Positions 45,427 to 53,116 of a stretch of 64,000 nt of DNA are shown in pieces (the first letter of the stretch is position 1; each line of letters starts with the position of its first letter). Source of the DNA: Lachnoanaerobaculum gingivalis (GTDB lineage: Bacteria; Bacillota; Clostridia; Lachnospirales; Lachnospiraceae). The notes beneath the pieces are model-generated. The model made no database searches and was not told the origin of the DNA. It worked only from the letters and a program-made list of their open reading frames with translations. Location: contig NZ_RRCO01000007.1 in NCBI RefSeq assembly GCF_003862475.1, positions 124,001-188,000 of the forward strand. The letters run 5' to 3'. Position numbers and translations under genes: made by a program.

Positions 45427-48400
45427 TTGTTTAGAATTAGTAAAAAAGTAAATATAATATTATTTACGTTATTAATGATTCTGGTTTTTATGTCGAAATT
45501 CTTAGCTATTGAAGCATTGGCAACCGGAGGAGGAACTGCTGCAACTACGGACATATCGTATGTTGACGCCGGTCAAACAGTTTCCCTTCCTGGAAAGCCG
45601 GAATCGTATTATTTGAATGTGACTGTATCAAGTGATAATTATACGGAACCATATTCAATAATATATTTAAAAAGAAGTGAGTTCAATCAGCCAAGACCTA
45701 CAGATGTCTCAGGCTCTCCTACGATAAAGAATGTGTCTGTGACATGGGATGCTACATATTGGAAAATAAAAGTTACATATAATTTACTTGCGCCGGGACC
45801 GATGGTATCAAATCCTTTCAGAGCAACTATGACAAGTCGTAAGTTTGCAAATGGTGAGACAGCTACTATAGAGACCAGACTTTTTACAAAGGATGGTGTG
45901 GAGCTTGCAAATAACACAAAGCAAATTACTGCGGAAACCTATGTTATGGGTGTAAACAGTCCTGATGATGGAACTATTAGAGGTTGGAGTAGAGGTGGAA
46001 CAGATACAAATGTAATCATATCCGATGATGAGACGGATGCAAGTCATACACATATAAAGAACGGATTTACAGATACTTGGTATTCATATGCACAAAATGG
46101 TACTAAGCATGTACATGATACAGAGATAACAGCCAGTAACTATGGTGCAGATAGAAGAAAGACCAGAACGATTCTTACTTTGCCATCAAGTATCATATGG
46201 GATCCAAGTTTGCCTGATAATGCAGACTGGACTTATAATCCTGTGGCTCACACAATTACAAAAGATATAGATATGCCAAATGGTGCAATAAGCTATTTTA
46301 CAAAGTTTACCGCAAAACATAATGGTACTCAAAGTGTAAGTGCATCTAATTATACAACTATTTATATACCACAGACAAATTATCTTATAAATGATGACGG
46401 TACTGTGGATATGAGTACTGAAAGAAAATCAAGGATTTATAAATCCTATAGATACTCTCAAAAACTTTATATGTTTAAATGGAATATATTACCTGAAACA
46501 GATTCAAACGGCCAGAATAATGCAGGTGACAGATATGTACACTTGGGAGATAATGACGGTAAAAACAAATGGATGATAAATGTATCACAGTATTGGGGTG
46601 CTACTCCTGTTACAGGATCAACAGTAAATTTTAAATCAATACTTGATACCCCTAATGAAATGGTGGATTTTACCGGTTATGGTTTCAGAGTTTGGGAATC
46701 AATGTTTGATGCGGCAAATCTTGCAAAGTTAAATCAAAATAAGCTTATAGGAATAAATGATGACGGCAGTGAAGAAGTTATTGCTACCAATATAAATTAT
46801 ACTCCTGTAACAAATAAGGTTGATTACTTTAAGTGGGATACCGACCATTCTATGACAGCAAAGCATTATAAAGCAGTAAGACTTGATTTTAATGATGAGA
46901 TAACTATTTCAGGTTATGCAGAAAACGCTGTCGGTTTATTTTTAGAGACAAAACTTACTCCTCAGGCAGTAACAACTATTGAAAACAGACTTGCTGCAGG
47001 ACAGCTCTATACAGCATATAATAGAGGAAGGGTTCTTTCAAATACCGGAGACAGTATGAGATACGCTGTGATAAGGAGACATTATCAAAGAGATTATGCA
47101 AAAATCAGAATGGATAAGCACTCACAGAATATCAATGGTAATCCTTCTCTTACAAATGTTCAATTAGGTGATAATATAAATTATCATGTATATACGGTTT
47201 ATGATGCATTTGTCGGTACAGATAGAACTGTGCAAAATGCAAAGGTTATATTTCTTGTGGATCCGGAGTTGGAGTTTGACAGTGCATTGCACCATAATTA
47301 TCAGGCTCAATATAGATTTACCCTAAATACCACACCTCAGAGAGTGGATAATTATAAGGGTACAGGTAAGACTGCATATATATTTGATTTGGATAATTTT
47401 ACACTGCCAAAGAGAACAAGTACCTTCAGCGGTGTAGATAGATTGTATTTTAACTTCAAGCCTACTACAAGCCTTGAAGAAGGCGAGCATACTGTAGAGT
47501 CATTTATGACATGGGATAATAACTCAACAGATGCAAGCGGTTTTGCTACAAATACAGTATATTCATCTTCAACAGTAGATTTCCTTGATAAGTATGATGC
47601 TAATAACAACGGAAGTACTACTGACAGACTTTCATACCAGAGCTTTAAGTTTAACTTTATACCGCCAAGAGCAGTTATCTTAACAAAGAAGCAAAAGCTT
47701 ACTACAGAGACAAATTATAACAGTGCTATCAATGCAGAGAGCGGAGATATAGTAGAGTATAAATTATCAGCATGGAATAACTCCATAGATAATGCAAGAG
47801 CTCTCAATGTAATGGATATATTCCCATATGAAAATGATAAGGAAATAGTAAAAGATGAGCATGGAAACTATATATCCAGAGGCTCAAAGATGTATCCTAT
47901 CTTGCAAGGACCTGTAACTGCTCCTGCAGGATATACAGTTTACTATTCTACAGATGCCCCTGCAGGAACTATTGAAGCAAATGCGGCAGCCAACTGGGTG
48001 CAGGCGGGTGCTATAGCAGACTGGTCAGCAGTTACTATGTTTAAGGCGGTTATGGATAATACCTACCAGCTGGTTCCGGGAAGTACAGATGTATTCACTT
48101 ATAGAGTGAAGATACCTGAGACAAAGGAACTTGAAGCAGGCTCAAGTGCAAATAACTCAGTAGCATCATGGTATGGAAACAACCTAAACGGTGCTTCAGA
48201 GTCACTTATTTCAAAGGTAACTATAAACAAATACATCATAGCCGGTAAGGCATACTATGATGTAGATGAAAATGGTAGCTACAATACAGGAGATATTGTA
48301 GCGGCAAACAGACCTGTAAGACTTGTAAAGGTAGACGGCGGTGTTGAGACTGTTATAGATACGATACTTACAGATAATGACGGAAACTATACATTTAAAG

Positions 48401-51400
48401 ATAAGATAAGTACAGAGGGTGATTATAAGGTATATATCGAGACCTTAGCCGGAGATATTATCAGACCTTTAAATGCAAGTACAGCAACACTTATAGGAAA
48501 TGATTTTACAAATACAGTAAGTCTTCCGTCAAAGATGAAGGAAAATCAGGTACCTGTACCGAATGTAAACTGGGTAGAACTTGAAGTTCCTCTTACAAGA
48601 ACAAATACAAGTAAAATAAAGAACTTGGGACTTAAGTCCGTATATACAAATCTTGTTGTAAAGCATATAAAGAGGGAGGATAATACCGAACTTTCACCGA
48701 CTGTGACAACAAGACAGCCAAACGGCACACCATATACAACAGCCCCAGTAACAGATAACTTCTATGAGGCGGAGACTCCACTTCCGACAAATGCAAACGG
48801 AGAGTATGGACTGACAGATACTACAGTAACTTACTACTATGTAAGAAAGGCTGCGGGAGATGTGACAGTGCATCACTATGAGGAGAACACTACCACAGAG
48901 CTTGCAACAACAGTAGTACAGCCGGGAGCAAATAAGCTTGGACTTGCTTATACCACAACAGAAGAGACCATAAATAATTATGAGTTGGTAGCCCAACCGG
49001 CAAATAAGAACGGAACCTTCACAGTGGCACCACAGACAGTGGACTACTACTATAGAAGAAAGAATGCAGGAAATATAACAGTAAAGTACTTGGAAACAGG
49101 AACAAATACTCAGTTACATGCGGATAAGATACTTGACGGAACAAAGAAGCTTGGCCTCCCATATTCAGAAAGTGCAGAAACTATAGCAAACTTTGATCTT
49201 GATACTACAAACTTGCCAAGCAATGACAATGGAGTATATACTACAGCACCTATAACCATAACTTATTACTATAAGAGAAAGGATGCGGGAAATGTAGTAG
49301 CAAAGTATTTAGAGGATACAACAAATACGGTACTTGCAAGTGAAGAGACACAAAATGGAGCAGGAAAGCTTGGACTCCCATATACTACAGTAGCAAAAAC
49401 AGTAGCAAACTATGAGTTAACAGCAAACCCTGCAAATGCAACAGGAACCTTTACTACAACAGAGCAGACAGTAACCTATGTATATAGAAGAAAGAATGCC
49501 GCAAATGTAATAGTAAAGCATCTGGAGCAGGGAAGTAATGCAGTACTTCATCCTAATGAGGTATTAGACGGAACAGGAAAACTCGGGCTTCCGTATACAA
49601 CAAGATCAAGGACAGCGGCCGAACTTCCAAACTATGAGTTGGTAGCAGGAATTCCTGTATCGGTAACAGGAAGCTATATAGAGCAGGCAACCCCTGTAGA
49701 GATAATATATCTTTATAAGAGGCAGGATGCAGGTGATGTAAAGGCAACCTATGTAGACGATATAACAGGTGATGTATTACATGCCCCTGAGATACAAAGC
49801 GGTACAAATAAGCTTGGATTACCTTATGATACAGATCAGAAGAGCTTTGCAAACTATGATCTTATAGCGGTGCCTGCAAACAAATCCGGAACTTTTGGAG
49901 CCGGAAGTGTGCTTGTGGAATATAAATATAAGCGAAAAGATGCAGCAAATGTAAGGGTAAAGCATATAAATGCAATAACAGGAGCAAGCCTTGCGCCTGA
50001 TGAAGTATTAAGCGGAACAGGAAGACTTGGTCTTGCATATACAACATCAGCAAAGACAACCGCAGATTTGCCAAACTATGAGCTTGTAGGCGCTATGCCT
50101 GCAAATGCAACAGGAACATACAGTTCAGGAGCAGAGATAGTAGTAACCTATCGTTATCAGAGAGAGAATGCAGGAAATGTAATAGCAACATATACTGATG
50201 AAGCGGACGGAAGCGCCCTACATGCCCCGGTAGGACAAAGCGGAGACGGAATGCTTGGTCTCCCATATGATACGGAGGTAAAGAACTTTGCGGACTATGA
50301 CTTGGTAGCCTTACCTGCAAATAAGTCAGGTACCTTCTCAAATACAAATGTAACGGTATCATATGTATACAGAAGAAGAGATGCGGGAGATGTGACGGTA
50401 AATCATATAGAGGTTGGAACAGGAAATGTATTATATGCCTCTACAATACTTAACGGAACAAGAAAACTTGGCTTACCATACAGTACAAACAGTGAAAACA
50501 TAAATCTATACGATCTTATAACAGTACCTGCAAATGCAACAGGAGTGTTTAGTGTTACAGCCCAGACAGTAAACTATGAGTATGCAAGAAAGAATGCGGG
50601 AGATGTAACAGTCCATCATATATCAAAGTATGATGGAAGTGATCTTATAGGAAATGAAGTACTTGACGGAAGCAGAAAGCTTGGCCTTGCATACAGTACA
50701 AGTATGGCTACAATACCGGACTATGAGATATATACTTTACCTGCAAATGCAAACGGAGTATATACAACTTCAAGCCAGAATGTAACTTATGTATATAAGA
50801 GAAAAGATGGAGGAGAAGTAAAAGCCGTATATGTAGATGAGGCGGGAGTAGAGCTTGCAAGCAGTGAAAGTATATCAGGAGTTGAAAATGCAGGACTTCC
50901 ATATACAACAACAGCAAAGACAATAGCTCACTATGACCTTATAAGTATGCCTGCAAATGCAAGTGGAGTAATAACATCAAGTCCACAGACAGTAACCTAT
51001 ACATATAGAAGAAAGAACGGAGGAAACGTTAAAGTATTCTATGTGGATGAGGAAAGCGGAGAAGACCTGGTGGTACCAAAGGTAATAGACGGAGCAGGAA
51101 AGCTTGGTCTTAACTATACAACAGATGTAGAAACAATAGAAAACCTTGATCTGATAAGTATGCCTACAAATGCAAGCGGAGTATTTATTGAAGATGAGCA
51201 GACAGTAGTGTATGTATATAGAAGAAAGAATGCAGGAAATGTAACAATTCATTATGTAGATCCGGCAGGAAGAAGCTTAAGTGCAGATGATGTATTAAAC
51301 GGAAACAGAAAGCTTGGCTTAGCATACAGTACAAGAGCAATAGAGATAAACGGCTATCACTTCTTAAGATCGGAAGGAGATACAAACGGAATCTTTAGAG

Positions 51401-51864
51401 TAAACGATCAGGAAGTAACCTATGTATACTTAAAGGATCCGAGTGTAATCATAATACCGAACCCATTGATACCTGCAACCCCAAGCAATGTAACAATACC
51501 GGGAGACAGAAACAATGATTACATCATAAGACCGAACAGAGCGACACCGTCAATAGCGACAAGATCCAACTCAAGCAGAGGGGGTTCCGGAAGCGGAAGC
51601 TCAAATGCAAATATAAGAGCAGAGAAGGTAGTACAATTAATAGATTCAGGAGTAAAGAAAGAAACTCAGGAAGCTAAACCTATAGAAATTCCAAATGCAC
51701 AGCCTGCAACCGCAGATAGACAGGTTGCCGCAAAGACAAGTGCGGTAGGAAGAGAAAAGTTGCCTGTACCAAAGACAGAGGACAGAGACAATATATATAT
51801 TTATCTGTTGATGCTTACATTATCTTTGACGGCTTTTGCAAGAGTAAAGAATAAGAAAAACTAA
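45427..51864 (+). CDS. giant MucBP-repeat cell-wall-anchored surface adhesin
   Basis: 2145 residues. TTG start, 6 nt after GGAGG. Signal peptide ~1-35, probably cut after ALA. Residues ~35-740 are a large Asn/Thr-rich stalk or ligand domain of unknown family, ~745-930 DUF11-like (VEYKLSAWNNSIDNARALNV), and ~937-1035 an SdrD-B/Cna-B-like domain (AGKAYYDVDENGSYNTGD). Residues 1075-2006 hold 13 tandem MucBP-like repeats of about 72 residues, with the unit core KLGLPYTT. The tail is Ser/Gly-rich, then a sorting-like end LPVPKTED, hydrophobic helix IYIYLLMLTLSLTAFA and basic KNKKN. It is likely sortase-anchored and involved in mucin or host binding (inference). Confidence 0.85.
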   Translation: MFRISKKVNIILFTLLMILVFMSKFLAIEALATGGGTAATTDISYVDAGQTVSLPGKPESYYLNVTVSSDNYTEPYSIIYLKRSEFNQPRPTDVSGSPTIKNVSVTWDATYWKIKVTYNLLAPGPMVSNPFRATMTSRKFANGETATIETRLFTKDGVELANNTKQITAETYVMGVNSPDDGTIRGWSRGGTDTNVIISDDETDASHTHIKNGFTDTWYSYAQNGTKHVHDTEITASNYGADRRKTRTILTLPSSIIWDPSLPDNADWTYNPVAHTITKDIDMPNGAISYFTKFTAKHNGTQSVSASNYTTIYIPQTNYLINDDGTVDMSTERKSRIYKSYRYSQKLYMFKWNILPETDSNGQNNAGDRYVHLGDNDGKNKWMINVSQYWGATPVTGSTVNFKSILDTPNEMVDFTGYGFRVWESMFDAANLAKLNQNKLIGINDDGSEEVIATNINYTPVTNKVDYFKWDTDHSMTAKHYKAVRLDFNDEITISGYAENAVGLFLETKLTPQAVTTIENRLAAGQLYTAYNRGRVLSNTGDSMRYAVIRRHYQRDYAKIRMDKHSQNINGNPSLTNVQLGDNINYHVYTVYDAFVGTDRTVQNAKVIFLVDPELEFDSALHHNYQAQYRFTLNTTPQRVDNYKGTGKTAYIFDLDNFTLPKRTSTFSGVDRLYFNFKPTTSLEEGEHTVESFMTWDNNSTDASGFATNTVYSSSTVDFLDKYDANNNGSTTDRLSYQSFKFNFIPPRAVILTKKQKLTTETNYNSAINAESGDIVEYKLSAWNNSIDNARALNVMDIFPYENDKEIVKDEHGNYISRGSKMYPILQGPVTAPAGYTVYYSTDAPAGTIEANAAANWVQAGAIADWSAVTMFKAVMDNTYQLVPGSTDVFTYRVKIPETKELEAGSSANNSVASWYGNNLNGASESLISKVTINKYIIAGKAYYDVDENGSYNTGDIVAANRPVRLVKVDGGVETVIDTILTDNDGNYTFKDKISTEGDYKVYIETLAGDIIRPLNASTATLIGNDFTNTVSLPSKMKENQVPVPNVNWVELEVPLTRTNTSKIKNLGLKSVYTNLVVKHIKREDNTELSPTVTTRQPNGTPYTTAPVTDNFYEAETPLPTNANGEYGLTDTTVTYYYVRKAAGDVTVHHYEENTTTELATTVVQPGANKLGLAYTTTEETINNYELVAQPANKNGTFTVAPQTVDYYYRRKNAGNITVKYLETGTNTQLHADKILDGTKKLGLPYSESAETIANFDLDTTNLPSNDNGVYTTAPITITYYYKRKDAGNVVAKYLEDTTNTVLASEETQNGAGKLGLPYTTVAKTVANYELTANPANATGTFTTTEQTVTYVYRRKNAANVIVKHLEQGSNAVLHPNEVLDGTGKLGLPYTTRSRTAAELPNYELVAGIPVSVTGSYIEQATPVEIIYLYKRQDAGDVKATYVDDITGDVLHAPEIQSGTNKLGLPYDTDQKSFANYDLIAVPANKSGTFGAGSVLVEYKYKRKDAANVRVKHINAITGASLAPDEVLSGTGRLGLAYTTSAKTTADLPNYELVGAMPANATGTYSSGAEIVVTYRYQRENAGNVIATYTDEADGSALHAPVGQSGDGMLGLPYDTEVKNFADYDLVALPANKSGTFSNTNVTVSYVYRRRDAGDVTVNHIEVGTGNVLYASTILNGTRKLGLPYSTNSENINLYDLITVPANATGVFSVTAQTVNYEYARKNAGDVTVHHISKYDGSDLIGNEVLDGSRKLGLAYSTSMATIPDYEIYTLPANANGVYTTSSQNVTYVYKRKDGGEVKAVYVDEAGVELASSESISGVENAGLPYTTTAKTIAHYDLISMPANASGVITSSPQTVTYTYRRKNGGNVKVFYVDEESGEDLVVPKVIDGAGKLGLNYTTDVETIENLDLISMPTNASGVFIEDEQTVVYVYRRKNAGNVTIHYVDPAGRSLSADDVLNGNRKLGLAYSTRAIEINGYHFLRSEGDTNGIFRVNDQEVTYVYLKDPSVIIIPNPLIPATPSNVTIPGDRNNDYIIRPNRATPSIATRSNSSRGGSGSGSSNANIRAEKVVQLIDSGVKKETQEAKPIEIPNAQPATADRQVAAKTSAVGREKLPVPKTEDRDNIYIYLLMLTLSLTAFARVKNKKN
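48649..51444 (+). repeat. 13 tandem MucBP-like repeats within the adhesin
   Basis: Each unit is about 68-76 codons with the pattern NVxVKYxE...L...xxLxGxxKLGLPYTT...xYxLxxxPANAxGxF...xTVxYxYRRKNAG. Protein sequence varies between units more than a recent duplication would. Confidence 0.9.
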
Positions 51865-51950: not shown

Positions 51951-51979
51951 TTGACAATACAGATTTATTTTAGTAGAAT
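51951..51979 (+). promoter_or_regulatory. promoter of the str operon
   Basis: TTGACA (51951-51956), 17 bp, TAGAAT (51974-51979); predicted start about 51986. Confidence 0.8.
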
Positions 51980-51986
51980 TAAATAC

Positions 51987-52042
51987 TGTGTAAGTAGGCG
52001 ATGATATTTGCACATATAGTGAATAGGCGATGATGTTCACTA
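51987..52042 (+). ncRNA. tandem hairpin RNA element in the rpsL leader
   Basis: Hairpin 1: TGTGTAA (51987-51993) pairs with TTGCACA (52008-52014). Hairpin 2: TAGTGAA (52017-52023) pairs with TTCACTA (52036-52042). The stems differ, yet both 12-nt loops read TAGGCGATGATA or TAGGCGATGATG. Probably a cis-acting control RNA; no named family recognised. Confidence 0.7.
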
Positions 52043-52085
52043 AAACAAAAATGTAAAGCAACCAATAAAAAAGGAGGAAAAAGGA

Positions 52086-52505
52086 ATGCCAACATTTAAC
52101 CAGTTAGTTAGAAAAGGCAGACAGACTTCAGTTAAAAAGTCTACAGCTCCTGCTCTTCAGAAGGGATTCAACTCACTTCACAAGAAGTCAACAGATATCT
52201 CTTCACCACAGAAAAGAGGAGTTTGTACAGCTGTTAAGACTGCAACACCTAAGAAGCCTAACTCAGCGCTTCGTAAGATTGCCAGAGTTCGTCTTTCTAA
52301 CGGAATCGAAGTAACAAGCTATATCCCGGGAGAGGGACATAACCTTCAGGAGCATAGCGTTGTGCTTATCCGTGGAGGTAGAGTAAAGGACTTACCCGGT
52401 ACAAGATACCATATTATTCGTGGTACTTTAGATACTGCAGGTGTCGCTAACAGAAAACAGGCCCGTTCAAAGTACGGTGCTAAGAGACCAAAAGATAAGA
52501 AATAA
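52086..52505 (+). CDS. rpsL: 30S ribosomal protein S12
   Basis: 139 residues, [31 protein letters not shown], and [20 protein letters not shown]. The streptomycin-site lysine in [11 protein letters not shown] and its partner in LPGTRYH are wild type. AAAGGAGG upstream. First gene of rpsL-rpsG-fusA-tuf. Confidence 0.98.

Positions 52506-53116
<611 letters not shown>

Follow-up and report, generated by a model that had tools for sequence, protein, structure and literature searches.

The window, a stretch of 64,000 nucleotides from Lachnoanaerobaculum gingivalis, contains the start of a str operon, which runs from a promoter through a pair of hairpins, the Shine-Dalgarno sequence, rpsL, a 140-nt gap and rpsG to fusA and tuf. 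All features described here lie on the forward strand. The promoter is of the sigma-70 type, and the consensus TTGACA-N17-TAGAAT that the original prediction had named is present at 51951–51979, with −35 TTGACA at 51951–51956, a 17-nt spacer and −10 TAGAAT at 51974–51979. Transcription is predicted to start near 51985–51987. rpsL (ribosomal protein S12; 52086–52505) is an open reading frame of 139 amino acids whose orthologues were collected by genome searches, and its Shine-Dalgarno sequence is AAGGAGG (52071–52077). rpsG (ribosomal protein S7; 52646–53116) has 156 amino acids and would encode the ligand in the scheme proposed below. The leader is common to Lachnoanaerobaculum records, including L. 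orale and L. saburreum. Directly upstream of the str promoter lies an open reading frame of 2145 amino acids (45427–51864), whose product resembles a surface protein and repeats a similar module many times, and the terminator-like hairpin of this repeat-protein gene precedes the promoter.

Of 148 loci, 111 have a TTGACA/TATAAT-type promoter with a score of at least 9 upstream of rpsL. A promoter element common to other operons was considered and rejected, because 12 of the 14 matches to TTGAC-N17-19-TATAMT-N3-6-GYGTGC in 61 genomes sit just upstream of rpsL by coordinates, the others being in L082 and L085.

Two hairpins with 7-bp stems and 12-nt loops had been expected at the 5′ end of the rpsL transcript. 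RNA folding does yield two hairpins, but their stems have 10 and 9 bp and their loops 8 nt; around loop 1, 7-bp arms would leave 14 nt rather than 12. Hairpin 1 spans 51987–52014 at the predicted mRNA 5′ end, hairpin 2 spans 52017–52042, and both display the loop GGCGAUGA, at 51997–52004 and 52026–52033, respectively. Their joint folding energy is −19.5 kcal/mol (z = −4.3), which was equalled by none of 200 shuffles. The window contains exactly two perfect copies of TAGGCGATGAT, 29 bp apart. The loop repeat holds in the window, although it does not hold across the genus.

Each of the six Lachnoanaerobaculum genomes searched has kept both hairpins between its promoter and rpsL. The mean pairwise identity in the genus is 0.97 for the hairpin 1 stem, 0.95 for loop 1, 0.96 for the hairpin 2 stem and 0.99 for the 35 nt that precede rpsL, as compared with 0.68 in the 100 nt upstream of the promoter. 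Loop 2, at 0.70, varies more than any other part of the hairpins. Loop 1 is almost constant (GGCGAUGA or GGCGAUGG), while loop 2 is GGCGAUGA, UGCGAUGG or UGCAACAG, and the two hairpins share an identical loop in G000, G004 and G005 only. Conservation thus covers the stems, loop 1 and the tail but leaves out loop 2, and an exact repeat of the loop is confined to three genomes. Judged from this conservation, selection acts on the RNA of the str leader, as had been claimed, with the qualification that the stems carry the signal and the second copy of the loop does not. No double compensatory changes occur in either hairpin stem across the genus, where changes are one-sided only (e.g., U-G to U-A). 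The MAFFT alignment of the twin hairpins misplaced a 2-nt linker gap inside hairpin 1.

The two stems had also been described as unrelated in sequence. In G001, hairpins 1 and 2 align over stem and loop; when the stem was reshuffled 2000 times and the loop left unchanged, 29 of the results scored as high, and for this reason hairpin 2 is possibly a duplicate of hairpin 1. In the other three species tested, there is no excess of similarity between the hairpins.

A search for the twin pattern in 299 family genomes returned two, both Lachnoanaerobaculum, so that the expected recurrence of loop and stems in relatives is confined to the genus. An element of the form AGYGTGCAT directly follows the str promoter and opens a 5′ hairpin in 83 of 111 Lachnospirales loci. 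At the position corresponding to 51980–51996, it is the initially transcribed element right after the str −10 box in many Lachnospirales. The element is also found at promoters before an L7Ae-like gene and before rpsL in other families (L029, L050, L061, L066 and L079). A hairpin near the 5′ end is found in 107 of 111 Lachnospirales leaders, as compared with 75% of shuffled leaders by this loose criterion. The twin hairpins occupy the place of this hairpin, and we infer that they are the genus-specific form of the 5′-terminal hairpin found on most Lachnospirales str transcripts.

What the 5′ hairpins do can be considered in several ways. The twin hairpin would most likely shield the 5′ end of this abundant mRNA. 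Transcription attenuation of the rpsL-leader type, as predicted for other bacteria, could be suggested by the run of at least four T within 48 nt that accompanies the 5′ hairpin in 80 of 111 Lachnospirales leaders and by the many forms of rpsL attenuators reported by Naville and Gautheret (PMC2965389). However, a T run is absent after either hairpin in the window (51987–52060) and likewise in the genus, making the usual terminator impossible there, and the 5′ hairpin itself arises in most shuffled leaders by the loose criterion. An attenuator is therefore rejected for Lachnoanaerobaculum, this reading of the 5′ hairpin being improbable, and the missing T run makes 5′-end protection a better guess than termination. 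The original prediction instead regarded the repeated loop as plausibly binding S12, S7 or another regulator. Loop 1 indeed hardly varies within the genus, and five of the six genomes have GCGAUG again in loop 2, but loop 2 of L. saburreum (G002/L037) is UGCAACAG despite an intact stem. Moreover, the exact repeat is limited to part of the genus and the twin pattern to Lachnoanaerobaculum, and TAGGCGATGRT is not enriched elsewhere, being no commoner than its reversed control in the six genus genomes. Binding of a regulator by the twin loops themselves is hence highly doubtful. Incidentally, overlapping mini-ORFs (52001–52056) start within the two loops in part of the genus. Coupled starts could be read from them, with the frame of the loop 1 AUG (52001, MIFAHIVNRR*) overlapping that of the loop 2 AUG (52030, MMFTKTKM*), and both frames are readable in the window. 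Yet the frames are not kept in the sequences of G001–G003, and no Shine-Dalgarno sequence lies at a usable distance. Coupled mini-ORFs, scarcely credible, were rejected as their frames are not conserved.

A second conserved RNA lies behind rpsL. Alignment, pair counts and a covariance model delineate an rpsL–rpsG intercistronic element at 52553–52622, a candidate S7 operator. It consists of a GUGCC/GGCAC stem (52553–52557 with 52585–52589), a small CGC/GCG hairpin (52595–52605) and the motif GAGUACC (52605–52611), and the conserved gap core reads GUGCCGG..GGUUGC..GCRCGAACAC..GUGAGUACC. In the GUGC/GCAC stem and the second hairpin, 95.9% of cells are paired, exceeding both controls; double changes are above both controls as well, yet in only three cells. 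RNAalifold on the gap element alone retains only the 4-bp GUGC/GCAC stem.

GAGTACC is present in the gaps of 140 of 148 order-level loci, 27 of 28 class-level loci and 2 of 16 phylum-level loci. As far as these sequences indicate, the gap element is found in Clostridia and is mostly missing from the other Bacillota sampled. The covariance model has a single match in the genome, the gap element itself (43.3 bits), and also matches the rpsL–rpsG gap in a number of further clostridial loci, although several of these matches are weak. In a comparison with the S7 region of 16S rRNA, which an S7 operator might mimic, the gap model R1 has no match in the 16S rRNA of this genome (L234), and GUGAGUACC resembles GUGAAUACG of helix 43 by eye only. 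A known Rfam leader was rejected: Rfam 15 has no family match in the leader or the gap of the window, nor in seven related loci. The original prediction had likewise recognised no named leader motif, and it is borne out in that no match reaches the gathering level and only an irrelevant one appears at E ≤ 5.

The leader and the gap contain complementary arms. The leader arm GCAACCAAUAAAAAA (52058–52072) touches the Shine-Dalgarno sequence and lies in the 0.99-identical tail before rpsL, and it can pair with the intercistronic arm UUUUUUGUUGGUUGC (52560–52574) in the rpsL–rpsG gap. The helix has 15 bp, perfect save one G-U, with a stacking energy of −22.0 kcal/mol (z = −7.2 against shuffled gaps). 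Its arms are about 490 nt apart, and their pairing would close a loop round the whole rpsL gene. The unconstrained minimum free energy structure and the centroid of 51986–52650 both hold the 15-bp helix as well as the two hairpins. However, full-length folds for three of the five genus members contain only 1.2–4.7 expected leader–gap pairs despite the identical 15-bp complementarity. Unlike the single 15-bp helix in the window, other Lachnospirales have GCAACC/GGUUGC plus a second helix nearer the Shine-Dalgarno sequence. The longest leader–gap helix found, with 22 nt (TTATAAAAACTTGAAAAATTCG with CGAATTTTTTAGGTTTTTATAG), is in L195 from another clostridial family.

Pairing was examined comparatively in 148 loci (67 in a first pass) by scoring the best gapless helix between each leader and the gap of its own or of a permuted species, with 10000 permutations. 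The best helix between the UTR and the gap is −15.08 kcal/mol with the own gap and −13.39 kcal/mol with permuted gaps (z = −9.4, reached in 0 of 10000 permutations, which ignore phylogeny). The last 20 nt before the Shine-Dalgarno sequence alone give z = −8.5, and z = −6.1 remains after masking of the hexamer described below. As controls, promoter-upstream DNA gives z = −2.9, the reversed gap −1.1 and the 3′ half of the gap −0.2. Because the promoter-upstream control is not at zero, part of the pairing signal is composition, but most of it is not. RNAduplex with unlimited internal loops gives z = −12.8; since its structures are too loose to interpret, gapless helices were relied on.

A leader hexamer and a gap hexamer were found by separately trained motifs. 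They occur together in 67 loci, the gap hexamer alone in 19, the leader hexamer alone in 9 and neither in 53 (Fisher p = 6.6e-15), and these independently found hexamers pair better than shuffled ones (z = 5.1). The hexamer is thus missing on both sides in about a third of loci, and many loci lack a strong helix. Double changes that keep pairing include GCAGCC/GGCUGC in six loci (L043, L063, L129, L135, L141 and L153) and the GCAACU/AGUUGC type in seven, with a concordance of 61/61. Those in single loci are GCGGCC/GGCCGC (L073), GUAACC/GGUUAC (L152) and GUAACU/AGUUAC (L170). On the poorly resolved rpsL tree, hexamer changes are few: position 4 has 3 and 2, position 6 has 2 and 2, and the singletons come in addition.

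When the gap was swapped with that of the nearest relative, the own gap was better in 67 cases and the relative's in 55 (sign test p = 0.32, Wilcoxon p = 0.035), supporting pairing weakly. Such a weak advantage is expected if near relatives share the pairing, but it leaves the evidence dependent on a limited set of independent changes. Folding of whole leader–rpsL–gap RNAs gives 13.8 expected leader–gap pairs when the gap is the locus's own, as compared with 8.0 when it is swapped for a foreign one (p = 0.001). Leader–gap pairing does not reach significance in the 44 loci sampled at class and phylum level (z = −1.1); in 28 other Clostridia, the region from −45 to −10, a restriction chosen post hoc, gives z = −2.7 (p = 0.007). 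Comparison and energy together show that the segment touching the rpsL Shine-Dalgarno sequence and the gap segment are complementary in a species-matched way. The part of the leader for which comparison suggests a regulatory role is 52058–52072, just downstream of the hairpins rather than in them.

We propose that the rpsL leader has two modules, 5′ hairpins and a Shine-Dalgarno-adjacent segment that pairs with the gap element, and that the latter serves feedback of the S7 type (probability roughly 0.55). In the first module, one or two hairpins, the twin hairpin in Lachnoanaerobaculum, would cap the str transcript. In the second, the leader segment beside the Shine-Dalgarno sequence would pair in the cell with the 5′ half of the gap element and hamper rpsL initiation. 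Binding of free S7 would stabilise this folded state, leaving the rpsL start masked and rpsG uncoupled, so that the first gene would be switched off from a distant intercistronic site. The S7 step is drawn from the rpsL–rpsG gene order and from the precedent of E. coli, where the S7 site is reported to act from the intercistronic position between these genes with retroregulation of rpsL (PMC10931766). By this analogy, the gap element most likely corresponds in Clostridia to the S7 site of E. coli, and S7, if it has a role here, would more likely bind the gap than the twin hairpins. An extended form of the proposal, to which we give a little less than even odds, is that the clostridial str mRNA is a composite regulator, in which the rpsL ribosome-binding site and the predicted intercistronic S7 site pair across rpsL, and one S7 would silence S12 and S7 synthesis by structure, not by mRNA decay.

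The helix could instead be a processing or stability stem, acting as an RNase III or Mini-III site or in end protection rather than as a feedback switch. Processing would part the rpsL mRNA from rpsG–fusA–tuf and set the S12 level apart from those of S7 and EF-G. Long double strands round one gene recall the processing stems of rRNA operons, the helix in L195 is long, and complementarity that is kept while the sequence changes is what a shape-recognising nuclease would maintain. Such a stem, however, leaves unexplained why the leader arm is positioned against the rpsL Shine-Dalgarno sequence and why the unpaired gap motifs GAGUACC and GCRCGAACAC are conserved. We consider it rather unlikely, and S7-type feedback remains the preferred reading.

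S7-type feedback would resemble S7 autoregulation in E. coli in taking place at the same operon start, with a structured rpsL–rpsG site and control of the upstream first gene from downstream (PMC10931766). The two systems differ in that the E. coli gap (99 nt) lacks the GAGUACC and GUGCC of the clostridial element and shows no leader pairing, its best helix having −10.1 kcal/mol (z = +0.7). Conservation of the E. coli structure is not obvious (PMC10931766). As E. coli has neither the element nor the pairing, the clostridial system is likened to the E. coli system, and membership is not claimed. In E. coli, control of the upstream gene from the operator between the first and second genes, or retroregulation, is described as destabilisation of the mRNA (PMC10931766), while base pairing of the rpsL start is proposed for Clostridia. 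If true, the long-range helix would provide a direct mechanism for retroregulation in common bacteria of the human gut and mouth.

No description of the leader–gap pairing or the clostridial gap element was found in the open-access literature searched, and the passages searched on a set of 20 new ribosomal leaders (PMC7247131) show no rpsL or rpsG entry. A leader search that covers 5′ regions alone can overlook a regulator with its second half downstream of the gene. The rpsL motif of Candidatus Pelagibacter ubique, with a bulged P1 and a three-stem junction, follows rpoC in one marine lineage with gaps of at most 9 nt (Meyer et al. 2009, PMC2704228). Like the present leader, it is a structured RNA before rpsL with no ligand assigned, but the window leader folds as two simple hairpins with no three-stem junction, and no long-range partner is described for the Pelagibacter motif (PMC2704228). 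The rpsL-leader attenuators (Merino and Yanofsky; Naville and Gautheret 2010) similarly place a hairpin leader before rpsL, and order relatives have the hairpin with a T run, unlike the Lachnoanaerobaculum leader. These attenuators are reported to be multiform with no common feature, and pairing with the rpsL–rpsG gap goes unmentioned in the passage on them (PMC2965389). The leader in front of the E. coli K-12 rpsL gene (L254) has a strong hairpin, too, and a T-rich stretch (CGTCCTCATATTGTGTGAGGACGTTTTATT) comes after it.
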